The notes under the pieces were generated by a model, which had not been told where the DNA came from, searched no databases, and saw only the letters and a program-made list of their open reading frames with translations. Of a DNA stretch of 64,000 nt, positions 18,074-47,851 are shown in pieces. The translations under genes and the position numbers were made by a program. Numbering within the stretch: the stretch's first letter is position 1; each line of letters starts with the position of its first letter. Source of the stretch: Alphaproteobacteria bacterium (GTDB taxonomy: Bacteria; Pseudomonadota; Alphaproteobacteria; Sphingomonadales; JAKSBY01); assembly GCA_021774625.1 (NCBI GenBank), contig JAJFIV010000027.1, positions 274,566 through 338,565 on the forward strand, in the 5' to 3' direction.

Positions 18074-18706
18074 ATGTCGGAACAGTCTTGTATTGATTTG
18101 AAAAATTTTCTCTGTGACCAGAAATTTTCCACTTTGCTAGCTGACCCGCCTTGGCGCTTTACAAACAGAACCGGAAAGGTTGCGCCGGAGCATAAACGGC
18201 TTGCCCGCTATCCGACCATGACACTTGAGGATATTTGCGCCTTACCTGTTGAGGAACATATGGAAGCGACGGCTCATTGTTATCTTTGGGTACCAAACGC
18301 ACTGTTGCCGGATGGATTGCAGGTTTTGAGTGCGTGGGGATTTACATATAAGTCCAATGTGATTTGGCATAAGATTCGGAAAGATGGGGGGTCGGATGGC
18401 CGTGGTGTTGGCTTTTATTTCCGGAATGTAACCGAAATGCTTTTGTTTGGCGTACGAGGAAAAAATGCAAGAACCCTTCGCCCCGGCAGGACGCAGGTTA
18501 ATCTGTTTTCCACAAGAAAAAGAGAGCATTCGAGAAAACCGGACGAGCAGTATAATATCATAGAATCATGCAGCTGGGGGCCATATCTCGAATTATTTGG
18601 TCGCGGAAAACGGGAAAACTGGACGGTATGGGGAAATCAGGCCGATGATGATTACAAACCCACATGGGATACTTATAAGTATAATTCCAGCGTTGCGGCG
18701 GAATAA
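18074..18706 (+). CDS. MT-A70 family DNA adenine methyltransferase
   Basis: A 210-residue N6-adenine methyltransferase. The catalytic DPPW is at residues 24-27 (STLLADPPWRF). Further family features are YPTMTLEDICALPVEE, ATAHCYLWVPNALLPDGLQV and NVTEMLLFGVRGKNARTLRP. I start it at ATG 18074, with GGGGAG 8 bases upstream. The next gene, 6 bases downstream, encodes a BglII/BstYI-family endonuclease, so this should be the protecting enzyme of a type II restriction-modification pair. The pair is visibly more AT-rich than the flanking genes, suggesting acquisition. GATC-containing target methylation is inferred from the partner. Confidence 0.88.
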   Translation: MSEQSCIDLKNFLCDQKFSTLLADPPWRFTNRTGKVAPEHKRLARYPTMTLEDICALPVEEHMEATAHCYLWVPNALLPDGLQVLSAWGFTYKSNVIWHKIRKDGGSDGRGVGFYFRNVTEMLLFGVRGKNARTLRPGRTQVNLFSTRKREHSRKPDEQYNIIESCSWGPYLELFGRGKRENWTVWGNQADDDYKPTWDTYKYNSSVAAE

Positions 18707-46287: not shown

Positions 46288-46300
46288 TGCACTGAAATGC
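46284..46300. repeat. 17-bp direct repeat, copy 2
   Basis: TTAATGCACTGAAATGC, overlapping the korB stop codon and identical to 40844-40860. A GC-rich CCGGCTTGCCGG palindrome follows at 46300-46311, as copy 1 is also followed by a GC-rich palindrome. See copy 1. Confidence 0.7.
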
Positions 46301-46314
46301 CGGCTTGCCGGTTT

Positions 46315-46343
46315 TCTTTCGGGGAAAATTCCCGAAGGGTTTT
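46315..46343 (+). terminator. Probable terminator after korB
   Basis: CTTTCGGG (46316-46323) pairs with CCCGAAGG (46331-46338) around the loop GAAAATT, and GTTTTG follows. The stem is 8 bp including one G-U. It would stop korAB transcription before the ECF sigma gene. The T-run is short, so confidence is moderate. Confidence 0.55.
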
Positions 46344-46366
46344 GCTGGCCCTTCCGTATCACTATA

Positions 46367-46939
46367 ATGAATTCCATGGACCGGAATTTGGCGGATGAGA
46401 ATTTGATGGTGCTTGTCGCCCGGTGCGACGAGCGCGCCTATGCTATGCTTGTGCAGCGTCATGGCTATAAATATCTGGCTTTTGCTGAACGTTTTCTGGG
46501 CAACCGGGCTGAGGCCGAAGACGCCCTGCAGGATGCCTTCCTTAAAGTATGGTCGCGCGCCGGAACATTTCATGCGGGAAAGGCCAAATTCACCACCTGG
46601 TTCTACCGCATCCTTCTCAACCGCTGTCTGGATATCAGGCGGAAAGCAACGCCCGGTCAGATGCCTGAGGGGTATGATGCGATGGATGAGAGAGAAGGCG
46701 CTGATCAGCGGCTGTACCGGCTGGATGGAAGCAGCAAAGTCCGGATGGCGCTTGCAACATTACCGGATAAACAAAGGACCGCTGTTGCTCTTTGCTATTT
46801 TCAGGGCCTTTCCAACCGCGACGCCGCCGCCGTTCTCGACGTCAATGTCAAGGCCCTGGAATCGCTGCTGGTAAGGGCGCGGAGTAATTTACGGGACAGA
46901 CTGGCTCATCAGAAAGCGAGCCTTTTAGGTCCTTTATGA
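46367..46939 (+). CDS. ECF-type RNA polymerase sigma factor
   Basis: A 190-residue extracytoplasmic-function sigma factor. Region 2 is DENLMVLVARCDERAYAMLV through RAEAEDALQDAFLKVWSRAG, with FTTWFYRILLNRCLDIRRKA after it. Region 4 is ALATLPDKQRTAVALCYFQG, then LSNRDAAAVLDVNVKALESL. I start at ATG 46367; ATG 46376 is also possible. TATAAT at 46363-46368 overlaps the first ATG, so if it is the -10 box the mRNA would be nearly leaderless from 46376. The next two genes are a membrane protein and a CnrX-like sensor, suggesting a regulatory triad. Confidence 0.88.
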   Translation: MNSMDRNLADENLMVLVARCDERAYAMLVQRHGYKYLAFAERFLGNRAEAEDALQDAFLKVWSRAGTFHAGKAKFTTWFYRILLNRCLDIRRKATPGQMPEGYDAMDEREGADQRLYRLDGSSKVRMALATLPDKQRTAVALCYFQGLSNRDAAAVLDVNVKALESLLVRARSNLRDRLAHQKASLLGPL

Positions 46940-46949
46940 GGAAAACAGG

Positions 46950-47396
46950 ATGACGCAGGAAAAAATGACTTTGGTTCGCCTTCAGGAGATTCTGGCGGCT
47001 TACGGCGCGAAATCCGATCGCTGGCCGGCGGATGAGCGGGCTGCGGCGGTCAGGTTCCTGGAACGGAATCGGCAGGCGCAAAAATTCATCGCTGAGGCGC
47101 AGAAGCTGGATACCTCTTTGGATAAACTGCCCGAACCAGCGCCAATGGGCGCGGCCCTCTATGCCCGGTTTTTGCGCATACCGAAAAAAACCGACAACAT
47201 CACATTTCTTTTTCAGTGGCTTTTATCCCCCAAACGGCTGATTCCGCAGGCTGCCGGGCTTGTCCTGGCTGTTTTTCTCGGTGTTATGGCCGGTCTGAAC
47301 GGCGCACTTGAGGAAGATGGCGACCTTAGCGCATATATTTTCGGCACGGAAACCCGAACTGCCGCGGACTGGGATTTGGAAGGAGTGGATCAATGA
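46950..47396 (+). CDS. Probable membrane anti-sigma factor
   Basis: A 148-residue protein I do not recognise from a named family. The first 90 residues are cytoplasmic-like and helical (LQEILAAYGAKSDRWPADER, AVRFLERNRQAQKFIAEAQK). A single transmembrane segment follows (IPQAAGLVLAVFLGVMAGLN, about residues 90-110). The short outer tail is acidic (EEDGDLSAYIFGTE). It begins 10 bases after the sigma gene and overlaps the next gene by four bases. Position and topology, not sequence motif, suggest a CnrY-like anti-sigma factor. Confidence 0.6.
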   Translation: MTQEKMTLVRLQEILAAYGAKSDRWPADERAAAVRFLERNRQAQKFIAEAQKLDTSLDKLPEPAPMGAALYARFLRIPKKTDNITFLFQWLLSPKRLIPQAAGLVLAVFLGVMAGLNGALEEDGDLSAYIFGTETRTAADWDLEGVDQ

Positions 47397-47851
47397 CCCG
47401 TTTGATGAAATGGCTTGTGGGGTTGCTGGCGGTTTCGCTGGCCGTCAATCTCTTCCTCGCAGGATTTATTGCCGCCCGTACCTTTTCACCGGATAAACAG
47501 GTGCGCCAGCACCCTGTCCCCGACTTCAATCTGCGCAGCTTTGCCGGCAGTCTGCCCGAAGAAGCCCGGCATGATCTGCAGCAGAAATTCAGGGAGGAAC
47601 GGCGCAATATTGCCGCACATTATCAGAATATCAGAGAGGCGCGGGAAGAAATCCATACCCTGCTGACCACCAATGAACTGGACGAAAAAGCCTTGCGCGA
47701 AAAATTCGAGGAAATCCGGGAAATTGAAGCGGCCATGGAAAGCCGGGTGCAGACCCTCATTCTGGATAGTCTGAAAAGCCTGGAGCCGGATGTTAGAAAG
47801 GAAGTGGTGAGGCGCTTTCACAAGCGCATGCAGTCACGGCGCCGGCGTTAA
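47393..47851 (+). CDS. Periplasmic metal sensor of the CnrX/Metal_resist type
   Basis: A 152-residue protein with one N-terminal membrane segment (LVGLLAVSLAVNLFLAGFIA) and a helical periplasmic domain. The pattern SLPEEARHDLQQKFREERRN, then REAREEIHTLLTTNELDEKA and LREKFEEIREIEAAMESRVQ, fits the Metal_resist/CnrX/CpxP-like fold, which senses nickel, cobalt or envelope stress. It has few histidines (only three or four periplasmic), so a metal ligand set is not obvious. The start overlaps the anti-sigma candidate. The stop overlaps the convergent aminotransferase gene by four bases. Confidence 0.78.
   Translation: MTRLMKWLVGLLAVSLAVNLFLAGFIAARTFSPDKQVRQHPVPDFNLRSFAGSLPEEARHDLQQKFREERRNIAAHYQNIREAREEIHTLLTTNELDEKALREKFEEIREIEAAMESRVQTLILDSLKSLEPDVRKEVVRRFHKRMQSRRRR

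Follow-up and report, generated by a model that had tools for sequence, protein, structure and literature searches.

RpoE8 of Azospirillum brasilense Sp7 is encoded in a tricistronic operon (AMK58_RS24945-24955) that consists of rpoE8, a hypothetical gene and a gene for a 'periplasmic heavy metal sensor'. RpoE8 activates its own promoter, as shown in E. coli; RpoE6 likewise activates the operon, whose function was reported as unknown (PMC12826043). The sigV gene of Caulobacter vibrioides (the CCNA_02837/02838 circuit) adjoins cabp, a gene for a periplasmic EF-hand protein. SigV activates cabp, and expression of both genes rises under calcium limitation and in acid (PMC13171946). The cabp promoter was mapped by 5'RACE as GGAAA-13-CGTTCA, a separate sigV promoter was reported inside cabp, and the membrane link of the SigV-CaBP circuit was marked unidentified (PMC13171946).

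CnrYXH of Cupriavidus metallidurans also combines an ECF sigma factor with a one-helix anti-sigma factor and a membrane-anchored sensor; its genes lie on pMOL28 in the order anti-sigma, sensor, sigma, with pump genes adjacent. The metal ligands of CnrX are H42, H46, E63, H119 and M123 (residues confirmed in the CnrX sequence). The CpxP/Spy/ZraP superfamily of E. coli consists of soluble proteins that are not known to be encoded with ECF genes.

Layout and conservation of the gene triad

In the window, the whole 64-kb stretch of DNA that was analysed, genes for an ECF sigma factor, a one-helix membrane protein (the middle gene) and a Metal_resist-type sensor are contiguous (Table 1), as the initial annotation had it: 10 nt separate the sigma gene from the middle gene, which overlaps the sensor gene by ATGA. 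Based on ORF inspection, the genes upstream of the triad read as a two-subunit ferredoxin oxidoreductase, and a convergent gene downstream of the sensor gene reads as a class IV aminotransferase. No pump gene adjoins the triad, again as annotated. The proposed likeness to the Cnr gene order was wrong: the order in the window is sigma, anti-sigma, sensor, unlike that on pMOL28.

Table 1. Coordinates of the triad, its predicted promoter and further motif copies (positions without a contig label refer to the window).
Feature	Position	Strand	Description
ECF sigma factor gene	46367-46939	+	ATG 46367 to TGA 46939, alternative ATG 46376; SigV/RpoE8-type
Candidate membrane anti-sigma gene (middle gene)	46950-47396	+	148 aa, one hydrophobic helix
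Membrane-anchored periplasmic sensor gene	47393-47851	+	Metal_resist match, CpxP/CnrX/NccX fold, without CnrX ligands
Predicted autoregulatory ECF promoter	46333-46359	+	CGAAGGG-N15-CGTAT; -35 GAAGGG 46334-46339; -10 CGTAT 46355-46359
Motif copy before EF-hand gene	C28:3581-3607		EF-hand gene G000:C28:3651-4118 (L134), 156 aa, N-terminal signal-like stretch
Motif copy before RND adaptor + permease operon (L128)	G000:C27:52106-52132	-	29 nt before start of operon

Homologues of the middle gene were present in 66 of 289 genomes sampled across the class and in 14 of 60 nearer relatives, the source genome counted in. Triad profiles were built from loci bearing this gene and applied to 154 loci of Alpha-, Beta- and Gammaproteobacteria. 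All three genes were found at 146/154 loci, and at 145/154 they were contiguous on one strand in the order sigma-anti-sigma-sensor; loci without the full triad were mostly cut by contig ends or frameshifted. The middle gene overlapped the sensor gene at 135 of the 145 loci and overlapped the sigma gene, or lay at most 30 nt from it, at 143; wherever both were present in the loci examined, the middle gene adjoined the sigma gene. Named genomes with the triad belong to Brevundimonas, Caulobacter, Asticcacaulis, Maricaulis, Sneathiella, Rhizobium, Paraburkholderia, Cupriavidus and Nevskia. Nearly all loci were complete, with the same strand and order, which marks the triad as conserved and operon-like beyond what chance would give; the locus counts are not independent, since the loci are related. 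The analysis supports the earlier proposal that an ECF sigma factor, a membrane anti-sigma factor and a periplasmic sensor may form a signalling triad.

All three profiles (8e-63, 7e-20 and 3e-23) place the rpoE8 operon of A. brasilense Sp7 in the triad family. It resembles the window triad in its three genes, their order and the upstream motif (GCAGGA-N-CGTA, 80 nt upstream), and differs in its additional activation by RpoE6. The C. vibrioides SigV-CaBP circuit is very probably also a member: the mapped cabp promoter fits the triad motif and matches GACGGAAA-N13-CGTT, which precedes the EF-hand gene heading a full triad in two Caulobacter strains. The EF-hand gene adjoins the ECF gene in C. 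vibrioides, whereas in the window genome it is located on another contig. The triad family connects the reports on RpoE8 and SigV-CaBP, neither of which mentions the other in the portions available, and proposes candidates for the missing anti-sigma factor and sensor of the SigV-CaBP circuit.

Plasmid searches with the relatives' anti-sigma or sensor proteins gave no match; a plasmid search with the sigma protein retrieved the Azospirillum operons. Of the two triads in one genome (G290; L042, L045), only one has an EF-hand gene at its head. Genes that read, by inspection, as histidine kinase, response regulator, DegP-type protease and GlnE-like genes recur near the triad in L046-L125.

Protein components of the triad

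The sigma protein of the window contains sigma-70 regions 2 and 4 only (Sigma70_r2, 4.4e-17; Sigma70_r4_2, 1.3e-13), as is typical of ECF sigma factors. It scored 197.6 bits against NCBIfam PRK05602, under the 208-bit cut-off, and showed 28% identity to CnrH. The gene order, together with a G(A/C)(A/C)GG-CGT(A/T) promoter, places it with the SigV/RpoE8-type triads.

Searched alone, the middle protein of the window had no match in Pfam, NCBIfam or PDB. It is predicted to contain a cytosolic N-terminal domain, a membrane helix (~97-117) with G111xxxG115 and a short periplasmic tail. Of 96 non-redundant middle proteins, 85 have a hydrophobic helix with 50 or more residues on its N-terminal side and ~30 on its C-terminal side; across 40 middle proteins, G19, W25 and P26 were invariant and D54, L57, G111 and G115 nearly so. 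NCBIfam NF052375 ('anti-sigma factor') matched the middle proteins of 15/40 relatives (best 1.8e-8); where inspected, the matches covered the domain and helix region and scored far under the family cut-off. Weak matches were also obtained to DUF3379 (4/40) and to the PRK13920 anti-sigma model. The AF2 model of the anti-sigma domain of one relative, L100, showed four confident helices (core pLDDT ~97). Sigma and anti-sigma of L100 form a natural same-frame read-through (TAG read as Gly); modelled as such, with an alignment of anti-sigma rows only, they gave a pTM of 0.40 and no confident docking. Because of the NF052375 matches and the four-helix domain, the middle protein appears more like class I than class II anti-sigma factors; it may bind the sigma factor. 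Homology to CnrY was rejected (profile comparison probability 0.5%), in keeping with the absence of a clear CnrY match in the initial annotation, and the anti-sigma profile of the triad family missed cnrY in L031. In L100 (2655-3155), the membrane-helix segment of the anti-sigma gene is duplicated in tandem.

The sensor protein matched Metal_resist (PF13801, 7.7e-23). Its AF2 model (pLDDT 91.8) pairs a helical hairpin with a long helix at the N-terminus (2-31), so that by both fold and Pfam model it belongs with the Metal_resist/CpxP-CnrX group. Employing Foldseek, we found E. coli CpxP (3itf) to be the nearest solved fold (E 0.019, the best value; probability 1.00), followed by NccX and many CnrX entries (mostly 0.95-0.99); Spy and ZraP were matched as well. 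In the profile comparison with CnrX, the E-value was 5e-4 (probability 30%); global mode gave 6e-5 (36%). The CnrX residues H42, H46, E63, H119 and M123 are replaced by F, S, F, L and S, respectively, in the window sensor, which bears out the earlier remark that obvious metal ligands are lacking. Across the sensor family the ligand positions are mostly hydrophobic, with L, M or F at the E63 position and mostly A or V at the H119 position; His never exceeds 18% in any column, and no His, Met or Cys is conserved. Because of the five substitutions and the lack of a conserved His, the CnrX-type metal site is missing from the sensor as judged by sequence; metal sites of another type may exist. The signal probably differs from that of CnrYXH, as had been suggested. 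None of the features of CnrYXH/NccYXH systems (CnrX ligands, a CnrY-type class II anti-sigma factor, Y-X-H order with efflux genes) was found in the triad.

Promoter motif and predicted targets

We derived a promoter motif by comparing the upstream regions of triad loci. It reads GAAGGG-N15/16-CGTA in the order-level relatives and GACGG/GCAGG-N15/16-CGT at other loci, with G(A/C)(A/C)GG-N15-17-CGT(A/T) as the consensus common to triad loci. Searches were carried out with the generalised pattern G[ACG][AC]GG-N15-17-CGT[AT]; first-order Markov sequences served as shuffle controls, and the first ATG was taken as the start codon. The copy ahead of the sigma gene in the window spans 46334-46358, and a transcript directed by the -10 element CGTAT would start near the ATG at 46367 and possibly be leaderless. 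A second strict match in the window (18453-18479, minus strand) was rejected as a promoter; it is regarded as a chance match because its spacer is longer and it sits within an ORF on the opposite strand. Inverted repeats follow the preceding gene at 46300-46345, and the second, terminator-like repeat is overlapped by the -35 element.

The motif was found directly upstream of sigma in 37/85 triads that lack an immediately preceding EF-hand gene but in only 2/31 that have one; in triad operons headed by an EF-hand gene, it preceded that gene in 21/28 (shuffles 0-3). Of 30 loci from another genus within the Brevundimonas family, 29 carried the motif in the 900-nt stretch ahead of the sigma domain, in 28 cases at ~520-660 nt, and in 15 of the 30 a strict EF-hand pattern identified an EF-hand ORF there. 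Operons mostly from Paraburkholderia (L051-L109) start with a gene for a YXWGXW-repeat protein instead of an EF-hand gene; the motif precedes the YXWGXW gene in 18/30 (shuffles 0-2).

Seven copies of CGAAGGG-N14-16-CGTAT were found in the source genome, one of them ahead of the triad. Over 16 genomes, this pattern gave 28 matches compared to 11 for the reversed control; with two looser patterns, searched in the source genome alone, the counts were not above the reversed control. Among the best EF-hand matches in the order-level genomes, including the source, the generalised motif lay at most 200 nt from the first ATG in 11/11 (shuffles 0-1). Orthologous RND adaptors carried the motif in 4/13 cases (shuffles 0-1), or in 3/12 when the related genomes are considered. 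Apart from the copies before the triad, the EF-hand gene and the RND operon (Table 1), those in the source genome are weaker candidates. Further motif-bearing genes encode, by inspection, secreted or envelope proteins, including a membrane permease.

Proposed mechanism and its alternatives

From the gene linkage, the conserved promoters, the sensor fold and the absent ligands, all read from sequence, we infer how the sigma factor would be bound, how the sensor would transmit to the anti-sigma factor, and what signal and feedback may be involved. In a resting cell, the cytosolic N-terminal domain of the middle protein would hold the sigma factor at the membrane, and the helix-anchored sensor, with its periplasmic CpxP/CnrX-fold hairpin, would act across the membrane to control the middle protein. 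Release of the sigma factor, either by a conformational change or by proteolysis, would then follow a signal from the periplasm or envelope that is not metal binding of the CnrX type. The freed sigma factor would transcribe its own operon and the periplasmic EF-hand gene via the consensus promoter, with the RND pump operon as a likely second target in the source genome. If the triad works like C. vibrioides SigV-CaBP, it may respond to calcium limitation and acid; this analogy and that with CpxP also make feedback of the EF-hand protein on the sensor probable. We therefore favour reading the triad as an ECF module that is autoregulated and Cnr-like but senses the envelope rather than metal, with the EF-hand protein as its main conserved output in alphaproteobacteria, and consider this reading likely to be correct. 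A broader version, in which the triad is a Proteobacteria-wide pathway of calcium/envelope homeostasis and the metal-less CnrX/CpxP-fold sensor reads the calcium-loaded state of the EF-hand protein, itself the main sigma product, appears rather doubtful; if it is true, the 'heavy metal sensor' annotation is wrong.

The envelope signal could be of the CpxP/RseA kind, in which misfolded periplasmic proteins or membrane damage would cause the anti-sigma factor to be proteolysed in steps; the EF-hand protein would then be one chaperone-like output, and calcium incidental. CpxP as the best Foldseek match ahead of NccX/CnrX, the presence of Spy and ZraP among the matches, the weak NF052375 and PRK13920 hits of the middle protein and the secreted or envelope products of other motif-bearing genes are all consistent with this explanation, which we hold to be quite possible. 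The published signal in C. vibrioides, calcium depletion and acid (PMC13171946), speaks against it, though both also disturb the envelope. The annotation 'periplasmic heavy metal sensor' implies instead a metal-sensing Cnr/Ncc-type system that controls efflux. The Metal_resist match, the CnrX/NccX fold and the triad-type promoter before the RND operon and some orthologous adaptors agree with such a role, but it is made improbable by the substituted ligand positions, by a gene order and an anti-sigma type that differ from those of CnrYXH, and by the EF-hand gene being the more constant target. Least probable, and in our estimate very much so, is that the middle protein is an accessory membrane protein and the sigma factor is regulated by its amount only. 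The L100 model without confident sigma docking would fit this; the constant coupling of the middle gene to the sigma gene, the conserved cytosolic domain with one helix and the anti-sigma profile matches (NF052375) argue for an anti-sigma factor.

The favoured envelope-sensing module is assembled from parts of known kinds. The literature searched contained no description of their full combination, namely a class I-like anti-sigma factor, a CnrX/CpxP-fold sensor without the metal site, an EF-hand output and a promoter common across classes; an existing ECF group number is possible. Annotations of 'periplasmic heavy metal sensors' in the triad group should be read with caution, as these proteins lack the CnrX metal site.

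The promoter motif may be used for regulon prediction. In order-level genomes, it was also seen at the genes for two related secreted proteins that resemble DUF2807 by eye (L164, L170). In the source genome, one copy (G000:C28:68878-68904, L135) lies ~380 nt upstream of a gene for an apparent polysaccharide export protein.
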